DNA from: Sulfurimonas sp. hsl 1-7
GTDB lineage: Bacteria > Campylobacterota > Campylobacteria > Campylobacterales > Sulfurimonadaceae
Reading direction: 5' to 3'
Assembly: GCF_030577135.1 (NCBI RefSeq)
Contig: NZ_JAUIRR010000001.1
Span: 434,001-498,000, forward strand
DNA length: 64,000 nt
Shown in pieces: positions 436 through 7,837 of this stretch. Under the pieces are notes generated by a model, which saw nothing but the letters and a program-made list of their open reading frames with translations, was not told the DNA's origin and did not search any database. Both the position numbers and the translations under genes were made by a program. Position 1 is the first letter of the stretch; every line of letters starts with the position of its first letter.

Positions 436-3120
436 TTAGCTTACAGAAGTAAGTTGTGTTTTTCTTAATTTTACATATTTGTAGGTTTCATGAGAAACTA
501 GGACGAGTAGAGGGAAGGGTAAAAGGATCCATAAATCGGCAAGCGGTATATATGCAGTGTTAAAGATTTTTTGTATTGCTGTAACATTGAGCATCGCCCA
601 TATCCATACAAAAACTGCAACATTAGAAAAGATCAGCATCTTGTTTGAAGTTAAACTCATACTCCAAATATTAAAATCCCAACTTCTCATAGTCCATACA
701 TTAGCCAGCTGGCTCGTTACCGCTCCAAGAAGAGTCATCGTCATCGCCTGGGCGTGAAACACAGGATCGTCTAAATGCACCTCTCCATATTGCCAACCGT
801 GGGCAAGTAAAAAAGTAATAAAGGCAAACATAGCGGCACTCGCTTCGATAATACCTACAAAAAAGTAACCGCGTTTAAATACTTCCCAATCGAGTATTTT
901 CTCATTCTTTCCGACAGGTGGACGTTTCATGATATTTTTTTCCGGCTTTTCACTTCCAAGTGCTAGTCCCGGAAGCATATCTGAACCGAGATCGATGGAG
1001 AGAATTTGTATAACCGATAAAGGGTTTGGAATTTTTAGAAAAAAGGAGAGAATATAAGGGACGATCTCGGGAACATTGGAAGAGAGGATGTAGGTAACAA
1101 ACTTTTTAATATTAAAATAAACAGTTCGTCCCTCCTCAATGGCTGCTACGATCGAGTTGAAATTATCATCGAGTAAAACCATATCACTTGCTTCTTTGGC
1201 TACATCGGTTCCGCTTCCCATAGATATGCCGATATCGGCTCTTTTAAGTACAGGCGCATCGTTGACGCCGTCACCAGTCATCGCAACCACTTCACCGTTT
1301 GCCTGAAGAGCATCTGCTACTTTTAGTTTCTGATTACTCGCCATTCTGGCAAAAATATATGTTTTTTCCAGAAGCAGTTTTTGAAGCTCTTTATGGCTGA
1401 GTGTCGCGGCTTCATCTCCACTTATAACCCCGTCAAAACGTAAACCTATCTGTTTTGCAATAGCTGCAGCGGTATTTGGATTGTCTCCTGTGATCATAAT
1501 GGTTCGAATCCCTGCACTGTAACAGGTCTCAAGTGCTTCTTTTACTTCAGGGCGGGCAACATCCATAATAGCACTTAGTCCCAAAAGAGTTAAGTTCTCT
1601 TCATCGTTTTTGTCATTGATGGCAATAGCTAAAACTCTGTAAGCTTTGTTTTCCAGTTTTTCTAAAGCTTGCTCCATTACTTGTTGAGCATTTTGATCAA
1701 AAGGCTTCACTCCGTCACTGCTTCTGTAGTGGGAACATTTTTCAAAAACAATCTCTGCAGCCCCCTTAACAAAAAGAAGCTCTTTTGAGTCCACTTGCCC
1801 AAAAGTGGACATCATTTTTCGCTCACTCGTAAAAGGGTTTTCTGCTACTTTTTGAAATCTGTATTTGAGATTGTATTTGTGTGCAGCTACTACAAGTGCA
1901 AGTTCCGTAGGATCGCCTATAGGTTGATCTTCTTCTATAGTGGCACGCGAGTTAAACCAGCAGGCCTCTAGAAAATCTTTTAAAAGCTCTTTGGAGTTCT
2001 CTTTTTCGTTTTCGATTGCAAAATCCCCTTGAGTACTATAGCCGCTGCCGCTGATAGCAATCTCTTCACCGCTTGTTAGATAGATCTCCTGTAAAGTCAT
2101 CTCGTTTTTCGTTAAAGTTCCGGTTTTATCGGTACAGATGGTAGTAACACTGCCGAGTGTTTGCACGGATGCGAGGTTTTTAATAAGAGCATTGCGTTTT
2201 GCCATACGCTGCGAAGCTAAAGAGAGAGAAAGGGTAATGGTTGGTAAGAGTCCTTCGGGAACGTTAGCAACGATCAAAGAGAGAGCAAAGATAGCTGCAA
2301 TTAACATCCCTTTTTCTGAAAATACTCCGAGAATAAAAAATATGACTCCTGCAAACAGGGCTAATGCTGTTAAGATTTTGGTCATATTTATCACCTCTTT
2401 TTCAAGAGGCGTGAGCCCTTTTTCAATAGTTCCCGTCATAGTTGCGATTTTTCCAAACTCGGTTGCCATCGCTGTAGAGATAACTACTGCTTCACCGCTT
2501 CCGCTGACAACGCTCGTACCTGCAAAAACCATGTTTTTTGCTTCAATCGCACGGTTTGCATCGGTATTGGGATGGAGTTCTCTTTTTGAAGGTTTTGATT
2601 CTCCGTTAAGCGAAGATGTATTTATATAGAGTTCAGCAGCTTCAAGAAGTACCGCATCGGCTGCTATCTTGTCACCTTCTTCTAAAACTATAATATCTCC
2701 GGGTACGATCTCACTTGCATCAATCTCCTGTAATGTACCTTCTCTTCGGACCTTTATAATTGTGGGCATCAGTTTGAGCAACGCTTCCATCGCTTTATCG
2801 GCTTTGAAGTTTTGCCAGAAGGTAAAAGTGGCATTTATAAAGACTGCACCAAATATTGCAAAGCCTAAAATATTGTTTCCTTCATTAGGCTGGTAATGGT
2901 GTGCAATAAAAGCGAGTATACCTGCAAGCTCAAGTAAGATAGGGAAAAACTCTATATATTGTTTAAAATATTCATGAACATAGTTTTTCTCTTTCTTTGT
3001 TTTTATAAGATTTTTGCCAAACTCATTAAGCCTTTTTGAAACCTCAGAATTGCTAAGTCCTTCTCTCTGTGTTCTGAACTGATGCAGAAGTGTTTCATGT
3101 GAGAGCTTAAAAGGTAACAT
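436..3120 (-). CDS. P-type cation ATPase, IIC-like (Na+/K+-ATPase-related)
   Basis: A full-length 894-residue P-type ATPase: phosphorylation motif DKTGTLTKNE with Asp331, PEGLL in TM4 at about 288-292, KGAAEIV in the nucleotide domain, TGDGVNDAP hinge, and six C-terminal membrane segments. The TM4 string NVPEGLL and the TM6 string IDLGSDMLPGLALGSE resemble Na,K-/H,K-ATPases (type IIC) more than calcium pumps, which usually have PEGLP or PEALP. The actuator loop reads NGES (172-175) instead of the usual TGES. A GTG at 3123 precedes ATG at 3120; I chose the ATG, which shares one base with the stop of the upstream stress-protein gene (TGATG), implying translational coupling. The transported ion is an inference. 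Confidence 0.9.
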   Translation of the reverse strand: MLPFKLSHETLLHQFRTQREGLSNSEVSKRLNEFGKNLIKTKKEKNYVHEYFKQYIEFFPILLELAGILAFIAHHYQPNEGNNILGFAIFGAVFINATFTFWQNFKADKAMEALLKLMPTIIKVRREGTLQEIDASEIVPGDIIVLEEGDKIAADAVLLEAAELYINTSSLNGESKPSKRELHPNTDANRAIEAKNMVFAGTSVVSGSGEAVVISTAMATEFGKIATMTGTIEKGLTPLEKEVINMTKILTALALFAGVIFFILGVFSEKGMLIAAIFALSLIVANVPEGLLPTITLSLSLASQRMAKRNALIKNLASVQTLGSVTTICTDKTGTLTKNEMTLQEIYLTSGEEIAISGSGYSTQGDFAIENEKENSKELLKDFLEACWFNSRATIEEDQPIGDPTELALVVAAHKYNLKYRFQKVAENPFTSERKMMSTFGQVDSKELLFVKGAAEIVFEKCSHYRSSDGVKPFDQNAQQVMEQALEKLENKAYRVLAIAINDKNDEENLTLLGLSAIMDVARPEVKEALETCYSAGIRTIMITGDNPNTAAAIAKQIGLRFDGVISGDEAATLSHKELQKLLLEKTYIFARMASNQKLKVADALQANGEVVAMTGDGVNDAPVLKRADIGISMGSGTDVAKEASDMVLLDDNFNSIVAAIEEGRTVYFNIKKFVTYILSSNVPEIVPYILSFFLKIPNPLSVIQILSIDLGSDMLPGLALGSEKPEKNIMKRPPVGKNEKILDWEVFKRGYFFVGIIEASAAMFAFITFLLAHGWQYGEVHLDDPVFHAQAMTMTLLGAVTSQLANVWTMRSWDFNIWSMSLTSNKMLIFSNVAVFVWIWAMLNVTAIQKIFNTAYIPLADLWILLPFPLLVLVSHETYKYVKLRKTQLTSVS

Positions 3121-3914
3121 CACTTTTCTTCATAGGGGATAAAATAGACGGTGTTTATTAGCGGGTCTTCAAATAAAGTATCGATCGGATGGGAAAAGAA
3201 AAAACTTGAGCTAGTATGTGCTCCTACAATTGTCAAGTCAAATCTGTTTCGGCCAATATGGGAACGAACCATCTCTCCCTCACCGTAAGCAAAGTCATGC
3301 TTGAGAGATAATTTAAAGTTAAGCATATTGGCAAGTCTGAAATAGTGTCTGAGATGAAATATGAGCTCTTTTAAGCGTGTTGTTTCTTTCTTTTCAAAAA
3401 AACTTGATTTGTATATTTTATCTATAGAGTAGATCTCCGCTTTTGCATTGTATGCTAAGACGAATGTGGAAAACAGAGTGAATTTTTTTACTGAGAGTTT
3501 TGAGCTTCTGATCGGTAAGACGACATTTTCTACACGATTTGCATAGCCTGTGTTTAACACCTTTACAATAGCAAAATCTACTTTTAGTTTTTTATGGATG
3601 AGTGTTTGAACGAAGGAGGGGTCAAAGAGTGCATGTCTGTATCGTGTTGAGCAAAAGATCATATCTATATCTTTTTGTTCTATAAAGGTTGTAAGTTCCT
3701 CAAGTGTATCAAAGATAGTAAAGTTTGATTCTACATCTTTCTCTTGCGCTAAAGCAAACAGATCATCGGCACTTTTTTGCACCTCTTCAAGAGAGTCTTT
3801 CCCTTTGACATGAAGAATATAAAGAGGAAGGTTTGATTGTTTTGCATAGTTTAGGGCATATATGGAGGAGGTTTGAGAACTTAACGAACCGTTTATAAGA
3901 GTGATAACGTGCAT
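3120..3914 (-). CDS. Universal-stress-protein-like protein coupled to the P-type ATPase
   Basis: A protein of about 264 residues beginning MHVITLINGSLSSQTSS with the alternating beta/alpha pattern of a UspA-type nucleotide-binding fold. The C-terminal part (about 220-264) has DLTIVGAHTSS, close to the UspA signature in which a Gly-rich loop contacts ATP phosphates, though the canonical GxxG(9x)GS/T is not clear. I start it at 3914 because AAGGGGAT lies just upstream; an ATG eight codons earlier (3938) has no good ribosome site. The stop overlaps the ATPase start by one base, so the two are probably co-translated and the protein may regulate or sense for the pump. The Usp assignment is moderate. 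Confidence 0.6.
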   Translation of the reverse strand: MHVITLINGSLSSQTSSIYALNYAKQSNLPLYILHVKGKDSLEEVQKSADDLFALAQEKDVESNFTIFDTLEELTTFIEQKDIDMIFCSTRYRHALFDPSFVQTLIHKKLKVDFAIVKVLNTGYANRVENVVLPIRSSKLSVKKFTLFSTFVLAYNAKAEIYSIDKIYKSSFFEKKETTRLKELIFHLRHYFRLANMLNFKLSLKHDFAYGEGEMVRSHIGRNRFDLTIVGAHTSSSFFFSHPIDTLFEDPLINTVYFIPYEEK

Positions 3915-3951
3915 AGATATATCCCCTTTAAAAAGCATATCTGTCTATTGT

Positions 3952-3975
3952 ACACAAATTTTAGATAATTTGTGT
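3952..3975. promoter_or_regulatory. Perfect 9-bp inverted repeat upstream of the stress-protein/ATPase operon
   Basis: ACACAAATT, a six-base spacer TTAGAT, then AATTTGTGT. It sits 38 bases upstream of the chosen start at 3914. No T-run follows on either strand, so it looks more like an operator than an intrinsic terminator. The regulator is unknown. Confidence 0.4.
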
Positions 3976-4022
3976 CGTACGATCTTTAATTAGATGTTTT
4001 TATAGCTTATCATCTTCTACCT

Positions 4023-4664
4023 TTATTTAAATATAGAAGAGTTTTTGATAAGTAAGTTATGTCTTAATGTTAGTTTTGAAAATGGAACTTTCTTGTTTAT
4101 TAGTTTTACAGTTTCATCATTCATGGGTATAGCCAAAACTATTTTATCATCATTTAAAATATAATATTTTTTAAATTTAAAAAATTGAATAATAAAATAA
4201 ACAGATAGAAAAATCATGTTTAGTAGGGATTGACCAATAGTACCAATGAAGGACTCAACTTTATTATTCAATGTTTTTTTCTTGAGTTTTATTTTTTCTA
4301 TTTCTCCGAAAATAGGAAAATAACTCCAACCAATATTTATTTTATTTAATTGCATAATATATTTATCAATGTCTCCATTATTTAAAACAAAGTCATAAGA
4401 TAAACTTTCTTTATCAATCAATATATATTGTGTTGATGATAGTAGTTTATATAATTGTTTATATCCATAAAAAAATGATGAGAAAACACCGATGATACTT
4501 GTAACTAATCCCGCTTTATACATAAGTAAATCAAGACTATCTTTTTCTATAGCTATTTTTTGTATCAAAAAATACAATAGTAAAATGAATATAATTAGTG
4601 AAAATATTCTTAGTGTTAATTCAGATTTTAACAAGTAGTCATTCTTGATTGTAATTTCTATCAT
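4023..4664 (-). CDS. Hypothetical membrane protein next to the attC site
   Basis: A 213-residue protein I do not recognise. Hydrophobic segments lie at about 18-34 (FSLIIFILLLYFLIQ), 51-67 and 148-163, and the rest is Lys/Asn/Ile-rich with poor codon diversity, more AT-rich than the neighbouring housekeeping genes. Its ATG is 12 bases after the GTTAGAT end of the attC site, the position expected of a gene in the next integron cassette. Alternatively it is a resident gene that had a cassette inserted just upstream. No good attC can be found after its stop; only ATCTAAT (3995-3989, minus strand) resembles an R box, with one mismatch. Confidence 0.6.
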   Translation of the reverse strand: MIEITIKNDYLLKSELTLRIFSLIIFILLLYFLIQKIAIEKDSLDLLMYKAGLVTSIIGVFSSFFYGYKQLYKLLSSTQYILIDKESLSYDFVLNNGDIDKYIMQLNKINIGWSYFPIFGEIEKIKLKKKTLNNKVESFIGTIGQSLLNMIFLSVYFIIQFFKFKKYYILNDDKIVLAIPMNDETVKLINKKVPFSKLTLRHNLLIKNSSIFK

Positions 4665-4676
4665 TGTTCCTTTGTC

Positions 4677-4748
4677 ATCTAACGTTTGAAATGAGCAATC
4701 AAAAAGCCGCCCGCGGGTTTTTGATTGGTCTCCTCTGGTTTGTTAGGC
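4677..4748 (-). other. attC recombination site (integron cassette 59-base element)
   Basis: Read on the minus strand, this 72-base element begins GCCTAAC (fits RYYYAAC) and ends GTTAGAT (fits GTTRRRY). Between them are two five-base spacers that do not pair (AAACC and CAAAC), short arms with GAG pairing to CTC and two extra unpaired bases on one arm only, a perfect 10-bp stem CAATCAAAAA/TTTTTGATTG, and a GC-rich tip. This is the layout of R boxes, unpaired central spacers, L boxes with extrahelical bases, and a variable terminal structure. The stop codon of the upstream small gene lies inside the R box, as is common in cassettes. A GC-rich terminator could mimic the core, but not the flanking boxes. 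Confidence 0.8.
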
Positions 4749-5000
4749 TTTTGGAGCTTTGTAGTCTTTACGAACATATGTATATCCTAGAAGTACAAAG
4801 ATTAGACCTACAATTAACTGAACTGCTGTCATCATCAGGGCTTCATTTCCATAAAAACGCGGTAATGTTGGTTTTAACTGGAATGAAATAGTGCCTGTTT
4901 CAAAATATGCCAATATAGCATCTATAGAAATGTATACAAGACCTAAACCCATAAGAACAAAAATGATAGCTAGTAATATTCTTGTCTTTTTTTCTTTCAC
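4743..5000 (-). CDS. Small two-helix membrane protein carried on an integron-type cassette
   Basis: An 85-residue protein with a Lys-rich N-terminus, hydrophobic helices at about 8-30 and 57-76, and a basic tail. No family is recognised. The start is GTG at 5000: the only in-frame codons between it and a stop lying within GTTAGGC are GCA, CAT and AAA. The gene therefore begins 7 bases after the cassette boundary and has no ribosome site of its own, typical of cassette genes that rely on upstream translation. It ends inside the attC. The function is unknown; two-helix membrane proteins are frequent cassette cargo. Confidence 0.65.
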   Translation of the reverse strand: MKEKKTRILLAIIFVLMGLGLVYISIDAILAYFETGTISFQLKPTLPRFYGNEALMMTAVQLIVGLIFVLLGYTYVRKDYKAPKA

Positions 5001-5007
5001 TTTATGT

Positions 5008-5014
5008 GCCTAAC
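5008..5014 (-). other. Cassette 5' boundary (GTTRRRY core site)
   Basis: GTTAGGC on the minus strand. Its last six bases, TTAGGC, would be joined to the attC left end in an excised circle, giving an R' box exactly complementary to GCCTAAC of the attC. This match ties the two ends into one cassette of 331 bases (4683-5013). Confidence 0.7.
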
Positions 5015-5105
5015 TATTTATTCAACAAACATTATATATAGATTAGCTTGACATTAGCTAAATAAATGAACACTAAAAATGTTAATTTAAATGATATAGA
5101 AGGTG

Positions 5106-5882
5106 TTAAAGAGCTATTTTAATCCCGACAGGGCAGTGATCAGAGCCTTCTATATGATCGAGTATAAAAGCATCCTCAAGGTTTTCAGCTAAGTCTTCTG
5201 AGATAAAGAAGTAGTCTATTCTCCAGCCGACATTTTTAACTCTTGCACTGAAACGGTATGACCACCAGCTGTAACGATCAGCTTCATCGCCGTTTACATA
5301 TCTAAACGTGTCTATATAGCCGTGATCAAGTAGTTTATCGATCCATGCGCGCTCGATCGGAAGAAATCCTGATGTTTTAGAATTTGCTTTTGGATTTTTA
5401 AGATCGATCTCACGGTGGGCAGTATTAACATCACCGCAGATGATGATACTTTTCCCTTCTTCTCTTAGCGCTTCACAATGATCTAAAAAACGATCGTAGA
5501 ACTCCATTTTATAGTTCAAACGATCTTCATCTTTTTGCCCGTTTGGAAAATAGACGTTAAAGAGGACTATGTCATCAAAATGGGTTTCAATAATGCGCCC
5601 CTCATTCATGATATCTATATCTTTGCAATATGAAACATTTTGGCTTTGAAGTGTAGAGAACGTTGCCGTACCGCTGTAGCCTTTTTTCTCTGCCGAATTA
5701 ATATGGCGTTCTAAGTAAGGTTTTTCAAAAAGGTTATCAGGAATCTGTTCTTCGAGTGCTTTGATCTCTTGTAGACATAAGATGTCTGGATGACGTTCAT
5801 CGATCCATTTGAGGGATTCTTTATTTGCTATTGCACGGATACCATTGACATTCCATGAGATTATTTCGATTGAATCTGACAT
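5106..5882 (-). CDS. xth: Exodeoxyribonuclease III
   Basis: A 258-residue AP endonuclease/3'-5' exonuclease of the ExoIII/APE1 (endonuclease-exonuclease-phosphatase) family, acting in base excision repair. It begins IEIISWNVNGIRAI and contains LCLQEIKA (metal-binding Glu), the GDVNTAHREIDL loop (catalytic Asp and Asn), SWWSYRFSARVKNVGWRIDY and the terminal GSDHCPVGI with the catalytic His. Length matches bacterial ExoIII. It is transcribed toward the cassette and its stop is about 90 bases from the cassette boundary. Its ATG lies 46 bases from the edge of the sdhABE terminator region. All catalytic motifs are intact. Confidence 0.95.
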   Translation of the reverse strand: MSDSIEIISWNVNGIRAIANKESLKWIDERHPDILCLQEIKALEEQIPDNLFEKPYLERHINSAEKKGYSGTATFSTLQSQNVSYCKDIDIMNEGRIIETHFDDIVLFNVYFPNGQKDEDRLNYKMEFYDRFLDHCEALREEGKSIIICGDVNTAHREIDLKNPKANSKTSGFLPIERAWIDKLLDHGYIDTFRYVNGDEADRYSWWSYRFSARVKNVGWRIDYFFISEDLAENLEDAFILDHIEGSDHCPVGIKIAL

Positions 5883-5927
5883 TTATAACCTTTGAATTTG
5901 AAGTAAGAGAGAAAAAAGAAAAGGGGT

Positions 5928-5953
5928 TTACTAAAGGAAAAATCCTTTAGTAA
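5928..5953 (-). terminator. Second terminator hairpin after sdhABE
   Basis: A perfect 11-bp stem, TTACTAAAGGA and TCCTTTAGTAA, with a four-base loop. It lies just beyond the sdhE hairpin. On the minus strand it is followed by AACCCC and then a T-rich run. Confidence 0.65.
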
Positions 5954-5960
5954 TTAAAAG

Positions 5961-5985
5961 AGTGGACTTCTATACAAAGTCCACT
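5961..5985 (-). terminator. Terminator hairpin spanning the sdhE stop codon
   Basis: A 9-bp stem AGTGGACTT/AAGTCCACT with a seven-base loop that contains the sdhE stop; on the minus strand it is followed by CTTTTAATT. It forms a tandem pair with the next hairpin. Confidence 0.65.
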
Positions 5986-6851
5986 TTAGCAACGTGGTGT
6001 TTTAAACCAAGCTCAGCCGGAGTACATCCAAGAGCAAGACCTACCATTTGTTGCATATGAAGTACAGGAAGTTGTACGTCACGACCGATTGCTTCAGAAG
6101 CATGGTGAGTTTGTGTATCTAGTTTTAAGTGACATAATGGACATGGAGTTACCATCCAGTCAGCATCAGCATCCATAGCACCTGCAATTGCATTACCAGT
6201 TAAAATAGCTGCAGTTTTTGGAGCTTGAAGCTCAACGTGGAAACCACAACATTTGTTTTTTTCTTCATAATCAACATTTTTTCCACCACACGCGATGATT
6301 AGATCATCTAGTGAAGTAGGGCGGTATGCCGATTCAGGAGATTTATGAGTTTCATTTTGAAGCTCTGATGGACGGATATTGTGACATCCATAGAAAGGCG
6401 CAATATTGAATTGGCTTAGTGGAGTTACAACCATCTCTTTAATTTTATCTAGACCAAAGTCATCAATGATAGCATATAGGAAGTGAGTGATTTGAGATGT
6501 ACCTTTGTACTCTAAACCAACTTCAGCAAGTTTTTCATTTACTCTAGCTTTAAGATCAGCATCGTTATCTAGTTTATGTTTTGTCATAGCTGTGTTTAAT
6601 TGACACGTATTACAGATAGTTACCATAGTAAGACCGTGTTTTTCAGCATATGCAATATTTCTAGCATTTAATACTAAAGATAAAAATTCATCATAATCTT
6701 GTAAGTGAGAAGCTCCACAACAAGAAGCTTCCGTTAGTTCAACTAGTTCTATTCCAAGTTTATCTGCAACAGCAAGAGTTGACATCATTTGCTCTGGCGT
6801 ACTTTGTTTAGCAGTACAACCAGTAAAAAGTGCATATCTTAATTTTTCCAT
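5970..6851 (-). CDS. sdhE: Succinate dehydrogenase/fumarate reductase subunit E (CCG-domain, HdrB-like)
   Basis: A 293-residue protein with two cysteine-rich CCG domains: Cys12, Cys44-Cys45, Cys80, Cys83, and Cys156, Cys188, Cys201-Cys202, Cys237, Cys240. These ligate an iron-sulfur cluster in heterodisulfide reductase subunit B and in non-classical succinate dehydrogenases, where this subunit replaces the cytochrome b membrane anchor. Here it follows sdhA and sdhB, with 11 bases between it and sdhB, so it is the quinone-side/membrane-associated subunit of that complex. Campylobacter relatives are named MfrE (methylmenaquinol:fumarate reductase), and older annotations call it SdhC. It is unrelated to the flavinylation factor also called SdhE. 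Confidence 0.9.
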   Translation of the reverse strand: MEKLRYALFTGCTAKQSTPEQMMSTLAVADKLGIELVELTEASCCGASHLQDYDEFLSLVLNARNIAYAEKHGLTMVTICNTCQLNTAMTKHKLDNDADLKARVNEKLAEVGLEYKGTSQITHFLYAIIDDFGLDKIKEMVVTPLSQFNIAPFYGCHNIRPSELQNETHKSPESAYRPTSLDDLIIACGGKNVDYEEKNKCCGFHVELQAPKTAAILTGNAIAGAMDADADWMVTPCPLCHLKLDTQTHHASEAIGRDVQLPVLHMQQMVGLALGCTPAELGLKHHVAKVDFV

Positions 6852-6862
6852 ATTATTGTCTC

Positions 6863-7837
6863 CTAAAACTTCGCAGTTGTAGATGATTTAACAAGTGCTT
6901 TAATCTCATCCATATTATCTGATTTCGGTAATTGCCACGGCATAGGGATTTTACCTTTTGTAAACATTTTAAATGCTACCGGTAAATGTTTTACGATTGC
7001 CGGACCTTCAGAGTAAAGTACTAAGCCACCTTCATCAAGTACACCGCGTTTTGCGATCGAGTGGATAAATCCAACAGCGTGACGTGTAGCAACGTTAGAC
7101 TCTGCTTTTCCTTCTTGGAAAAGTTTTTGGTGAAGTTTAGTGATTTTACCGATTGGATCGATCTCTTTAGGACAAACCTCTCTACATTCGAAACATTTAA
7201 CACAGTCCCAAACACCTTGACCCATTTGGTTAACATCCATAAGTCTTGTTTCAGACTCATCACGAACATCAGCTTCAAATCTATATGCAGCAGCAAATGC
7301 AGCAGGTCCAAAGAAGTCATCATTTACTTCAACAGCAGGACATGCGTAGTGACATGCACCACATTGGATACAAAGATCAGCTTCATCAAGAGCTTCAGCA
7401 TCATGAGGTGATACAAGGTTTTCCATCTCTGGAGCTTCATCTACATCTGTAACAACATAAGGTTGTATAGCAGCATGTTTCTCCCAGAAGTCAGATTTGT
7501 CAATGATCATATCTTTTACAGCACGTTTTTTACTTAATGGCTCAATAACTAACTCGCTACCAAATAGATCTACCATGTCATTCATGCTCTCTTTACAAGC
7601 AAGAGTAGAGCGACCGTTTACTTTAATAGCACATGCACCACAGATACCGTGACGACAAGATCTTCTATAAGAGAAACTTCCGTCATGATCCCATTTGATT
7701 CTGTTTAAAATGTCTAAAACAACCTCTTCAGAAGTTACTTCCATCTCATAATCATCATAATATGGAAGATAATCCTCTTCAGCATTGAAGCGGAATACTT
7801 TAAACTTTACTTTTTGTGTAGTAATTGTATGTTCCAT
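6863..7837 (-). CDS. sdhB: Succinate dehydrogenase/fumarate reductase iron-sulfur subunit
   Basis: A 324-residue electron-transfer subunit. The 2Fe-2S site is Cys61, 66, 69 and 81 (CRHGICGAC..C); the 4Fe-4S site is Cys156, 159, 162 and 166 (CIQCGACHYACP); the third site is Cys212, 215, 218 and 222 (CVKCFECREVCP). Classical enzymes carry a 3Fe-4S cluster at the third site because one of these positions is not cysteine; four cysteines here predict a second 4Fe-4S cluster, as known for type E enzymes. The protein is longer than classical SdhB (about 240) because of a C-terminal extension. It is packed between sdhA (9 bases) and sdhE (11 bases). Confidence 0.95.
   Translation of the reverse strand: MEHTITTQKVKFKVFRFNAEEDYLPYYDDYEMEVTSEEVVLDILNRIKWDHDGSFSYRRSCRHGICGACAIKVNGRSTLACKESMNDMVDLFGSELVIEPLSKKRAVKDMIIDKSDFWEKHAAIQPYVVTDVDEAPEMENLVSPHDAEALDEADLCIQCGACHYACPAVEVNDDFFGPAAFAAAYRFEADVRDESETRLMDVNQMGQGVWDCVKCFECREVCPKEIDPIGKITKLHQKLFQEGKAESNVATRHAVGFIHSIAKRGVLDEGGLVLYSEGPAIVKHLPVAFKMFTKGKIPMPWQLPKSDNMDEIKALVKSSTTAKF

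Follow-up and report, generated by a model that had tools for sequence, protein, structure and literature searches.

An attI-bound gene cassette in Sulfurimonas points to the remains of a chromosomal integron without its integrase gene

Three origins have been proposed for orphan attC cassettes, namely off-target insertion, loss of the integrase gene intI, and rearrangement (PMC8618304); these are hard to tell apart because attI is poorly described outside class 1 integrons (PMC9024848), and IntegronFinder 2.0 does not detect attI (PMC9024848). The closest described systems are CALINs and single attC sites lacking an integrase (PMC9024848). The locus described here, in the window that we analysed (the whole 64,000-nt stretch of DNA from Sulfurimonas sp. 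hsl 1-7), shares with these an attC-bounded cassette with no intI nearby, but differs in that it keeps a recognisable attI. The IntegronFinder default for a CALIN is at least two attC sites (PMC12444791); with no intI nearby and one attC only in the 64-kb window, the locus is strictly a single attC lacking an integrase. In Xanthomonas, intI has been lost with leftover cassettes at a fixed locus (PMC12444791), and these degenerate integrons beside ilvD resemble the present case in that the locus is common to relatives, intI is truncated or absent, and strain-specific cassettes remain; here, in contrast, and in another phylum, several attI platforms are scattered in one chromosome and there is no fixed genus-wide locus. 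Insertions at attG sites, as cited from Loot et al. 2024 in PMC12444791, likewise place a cassette away from the integrase, but attG as cited there is neither attI nor attC, whereas the target in the window is an attI. Integrons in Campylobacterota have already been listed (PMC8618304), and within the genus Sulfurimonas autotrophica is tabulated with In0 and CALIN, i.e. with an integrase gene and an intI-less attC cluster in one genome; that tabulated entry, unlike the account that can be given of the window locus, describes no attI or locus history (PMC10295459).

A first-pass annotation of the window had described a 72-base attC with GCCTAAC and GTTAGAT ends, and this element is present base for base. 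It has the R'' and R' boxes and the foldable bottom strand of a gene-cassette attC: when both strands are folded as single-stranded DNA, a check that the annotation had proposed, the attC bottom strand, which lies opposite the gene, has the more stable fold, at -15.5 kcal/mol (z -4.4) vs -10.6 kcal/mol (z -2.2) for the gene strand. The bottom strand of attC sites usually folds better, so the stronger fold fits the expectation for an attC. Plain scans for R''/R' pairing were dropped because of their many chance matches. The training sites for covariance models came from the array of the relative G121 (G000 is the window's genome; G014 and G121 are the relatives compared at the same locus), from the distant integron of the window's own genome and from the first cassettes of other relatives; the boxes AACAAA...GGAG...CTCA...ACGTTA are common to the collected sites, and all are present in the window site. 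With an 11-site model, built from relatives and the distant platform, from which the window site and the two sequences nearest to it were withheld, the window attC scores 56.2 bits (E 6e-10), and no second attC match appears in the 64-kb window up to E 10; with a 13-site model it scores 71.4 bits (E 3e-11) and ranks third of six matches in the 2.28-Mb genome, a high score and not the below-threshold one that the annotation had named as grounds for refutation. By its boxes, predicted fold and model score, the element is a genuine attC. The GC-tipped hairpin directly after the stop codon could also be read as a rho-independent terminator behind an ordinary small gene, similar to an attC by chance; given the covariance-model score, the boxes common to attC arrays, the attI on the other side and a small gene that is not conserved at the site, the probability of this reading is negligible, and a chance terminator is ruled out by the covariance model and synteny together.

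The cassette itself stands as first described. Its 331 nt run from G|TT to G|TT (5013-4683; the bar marks the crossover point), GTTAGGC at 5014-5008 (minus) lies 7 nt ahead of the GTG start, and the TTAGGC with which the cassette begins complements the attC R'' box (GCCTAAC). A single short ORF in attC orientation lies between the two crossover points, as in a gene cassette. The 85-aa protein matches no curated family above cut-off, and its gene has no relative in the 199 other genomes of the taxonomic family (200 genomes searched); the annotation had held that conservation of the small gene and hairpin in place across distant relatives would indicate a normal operon and terminator, and the gene is not conserved there. 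No relative was found among the viral contigs searched either, and a viral origin of the cassette gene was rejected on that result. By its edges, ORF and attC, the element is an integron cassette with a genuine attC, and it is probably immobile at present unless an integrase is supplied in trans.

Features of the integron-like locus and its neighbours (positions in the window)
Feature	Position	Strand	Remarks
Resident left neighbour, Exo_endo_phos nuclease (xthA-like)	5106..5882	minus	orthologues at the same locus in G014 and G121
attI site	5011..5096	minus	core TATAATGTTTGTTGAATAAATAG|TTA (5036-5011) plus conserved upstream part with imperfect inverted repeat AAATTAACATTTTTAGTGTTCATTTATTT (about 5060-5088)
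TATAAT, putative -10 box of cassette promoter Pc in attI	5031..5036	minus	inferred from conserved distance to the crossover
First gene cassette, 331 nt	4683..5013	minus	TTAGGC after the attI crossover to G before TTAGAT
Cassette ORF, 85 aa, GTG start (5000), two predicted membrane helices	4743..5000	minus	TAA stop inside the attC R'' box
attC site, 72 nt	4677..4748	minus	R'' GCCTAAC 4748-4742, R' GTTAGAT 4683-4677; inner box GGAG/CTCA common to relatives
Probable second cassette, TTAGAT then 213-aa ORF (4023-4664)	4023..4682	minus	ORF begins 18 nt after the attC crossover
Resident right neighbour, 272-aa gene	3120..3938	minus	weak Usp-like match below cut-off, E 0.089

By motif and alignment, the upstream edge of the cassette is a complete attI site, which the earlier annotation had overlooked. 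In relatives, the motif TATAATG-N3/4-TTGAATAAATAG|TTA is found some 280 nt upstream of intI and immediately precedes the first cassette; the window has one match, whose core reads TATAATGTTTGTTGAATAAATAGTTA (minus, 5036-5011), with 0 expected in 100 shuffles at up to 3 mismatches. Further left, the sequence ahead of the core can be aligned with intI-adjacent attI regions over about 65-80 nt, up to nearly the xthA stop, and, read by eye, also with many attI sites. An inverted repeat of the AAATAAAC.AACAT..TGTTCGTTTATTT type is conserved about 25-55 nt upstream of the attI TATAATG (5060-5088 in the window) and is near-perfect in many relatives, e.g. AAATAAACGAACATTTTTTGTGTTCGTTTATTT (read by eye); it may serve IntI as an accessory binding site, or act as an operator. 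In most attI sites the spacing between TATAAT and the crossover point is conserved, and this box could act as a putative Pc from which the 85-aa membrane protein would be expressed. The attI adjoins the cassette as in a complete integron; no functional intI stands beside it, and no traces of intI were found at window positions 3000-7000. A local loss of intI thus has to be inferred, a point against reading the locus as the remains of an integron.

On the other side of the attC lies the 213-aa gene, which is absent from all 134 other genomes of the genus Sulfurimonas. There is no attC at its 3' end, and a cassette in this state would be locked in or truncated; most probably the gene represents a second cassette whose attC has been lost. 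Because no relative of the 85-aa gene or of the 213-aa gene turned up in the genomes searched, a resident operon was rejected. The outer genes do have orthologues in place, with identities of 97% (G014) and 94% (G121) for the 272-aa gene and 93% and 86%, respectively, for the nuclease. The first-pass annotation had offered a choice between one cassette inserted between two resident genes and the remnant of a longer array; the former does not hold, since an attI borders the cassette upstream and the 213-aa gene is cassette-like and non-resident, while the latter comes close. The locus very probably represents the remains of a chromosomal integron, consisting of an attI, the 331-nt cassette with its intact attC and a second cassette without attC, and having no intI.

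Comparison of the locus in close relatives, which the annotation had also recommended, finds the same attI with another cassette in G014 and an intI remnant with a cassette array in G121. Between the nuclease stop and AATAGTTAG, a stretch that includes the attI core, G014 and the window have the same sequence, and they differ from there on; the first cassette of G014 has a 160-aa ORF and a truncated attC. G121 has, between the same two resident genes, six cassettes with six attC sites, an attI and a remnant of intI; the remnant covers the N-terminal 32 codons and matches the IntI of locus L026 at 100% identity. The attI of G121 at the xthA locus is of another sequence type than that of the window, so the two platforms may not be strictly orthologous. 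Neither G014 nor G121 has an intI match (TIGR02249) at E <= 1e-40.

These alleles bear directly on off-target insertion, in which an integrase encoded elsewhere would have put a circular cassette into a chance attG-type site, a simple GTT-like target, beside xthA. Insertion at attG is established (Loot et al. 2024, as cited in PMC12444791 and PMC12901181), and an integrase gene is present 233 kb away; however, the cassette here adjoins an entire attI-type element, about 80 nt long and unchanged in G014, rather than a bare GTT, and G121 carries an intI remnant and a six-cassette array at the same place. Off-target insertion is thus very improbable: the attI match, together with what G014 and G121 carry at the locus, already refutes it for the most part.

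The simplest history compatible with these sequences is that an integron platform would have lost intI by deletion before the window's genome and G014 parted. In G000 and G014 the junction with the attI falls exactly on the crossover base although the cassettes differ; an integrase encoded elsewhere would therefore have acted later on the attI, by insertion of cassettes or by excision of leading ones, so that the first cassette would have been placed or exposed at the attI in trans. A trans-acting integrase and the replacement of alleles by homologous recombination would look alike in these sequences.

A plausible source of such an integrase is a now frameshifted IntI encoded 233 kb away, or a predecessor of it. 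The first-pass annotation had reported no integrase; this is right for the window and wrong for the genome, where a split intI in two reading frames (TIGR02249, 218 + 157 bits), the only copy found, lies at C1:671176-672110 (L009 16177-17110). The split reflects either a true frameshift or an assembly error. Together with its attI, three cassettes and three attC sites it makes up a platform at C1:671-675 kb. The attI of this platform has another spacing than the window attI (N3 against N4), so its enzyme may not have served the window attI. At the place of this platform G014 carries a single cassette with an attI but no intI, and in G121 (C1:603.6 kb, L296) the two flanking genes are adjacent, i.e. 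the site is empty.

Across 135 genomes of the genus, TIGR02249 is matched at E <= 1e-40, the threshold of our intI search, in 58, and in 52 of these above the family cut-off. With these matches, and with integrons reported from Campylobacterota (PMC8618304), the earlier remark that a cassette would not be expected in a Campylobacterota-like chromosome does not hold. The exact attI motif occurs at 64 sites in 46 of the 135 genomes (reversed-pattern control, 0) and, among the matches listed, also in Sulfurospirillum, Sulfurovum, Hydrogenimonas and Sulfuricurvum. By coordinates, 16 of the 64 exact sites lie within 1 kb of a strong intI match (E <= 1e-40) and 48 do not. We retrieved 40 of these 48 loci with flanking sequence of up to 2.5 kb in both directions, clipped at contig ends in a few cases: 8 of the 40 have intI fragments without a full intI nearby, and 23 have attC matches, 37 in all, every one downstream of and co-oriented with the attI.

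The window locus could alternatively be explained by an attI unit of about 80-90 nt dispersed without intI, e.g. by recombination or duplication, and offering a satellite docking site at which an integrase could act in trans, with intI never having been at exactly this place in the lineage. Dispersal of this kind would fit the presence of four attI platforms in the window's genome, and of at least four in G014 despite the lack there of any intI match at E <= 1e-40. It would also fit recognisable homology that stops close to the inverted repeat in several intI-less attI loci, and the other type of attI at the xthA locus of G121. We nonetheless consider it unlikely, since left-flank homology ends at varying distances (36 to at least 150 nt), often reaching the intI promoter region, and intI fragments are kept in 8 of the 40 loci, as repeated deletion predicts; the variable ends favour repeated deletion, and a sharply bounded mobile attI unit was rejected on this variation, although at many intI-less loci the homology stops near the inverted repeat. 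Repeated loss of intI with attI and cassettes kept would explain most of the attI loci in the genus. A broader proposal, which we put forward tentatively and hold to be possible though doubtful, is a distributed integron, in which the attI sites of Sulfurimonas and related Campylobacterota are satellite docking stations dispersed over the chromosome, several in each and for the most part lacking an adjoining integrase, that keep exchanging cassettes via one integrase in trans.

The open-licence literature searched gave no description of orphan or multiple attI sites, and within it the attI signature and the occurrence of several intI-less attI platforms per chromosome appear undescribed; as far as that literature shows, the use of an attI signature to separate loss of intI from off-target insertion is also new. 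A Campylobacterota attI signature lets the origins of orphan attC sites be distinguished site by site and points here to an intI-less platform. There are, moreover, chromosomes with several attI platforms and few or no integrases, and the sequences suggest that an attI can keep receiving cassettes after its own integrase gene is gone.

Besides the window locus and the split-intI platform, the window's genome has two decayed platforms. One, at C5:75 kb (75.3 kb; L290 1530-2110, minus), has an attI without the crossover region, a 154-aa ORF and a weak attC; the other, at C1:537.4-538.4 kb (L291 580-1565), has an attI with GCTA for GTTA and a weak attC. In the single-contig genome G014, several attI and/or attC sites lie at C1:568 kb (L145), 1135 kb (L297), 1213 kb (L298) and 1255 kb (L295); at L145 a nucleotidyltransferase-like gene with a partner gene comes first (read by eye). 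The third cassette of the split-intI integron carries a class D beta-lactamase-like gene (C1:673998-674756; L009 18999-19757) in this environmental Sulfurimonas, its protein scoring 279.8 bits with NF012161 vs a cut-off of 250.
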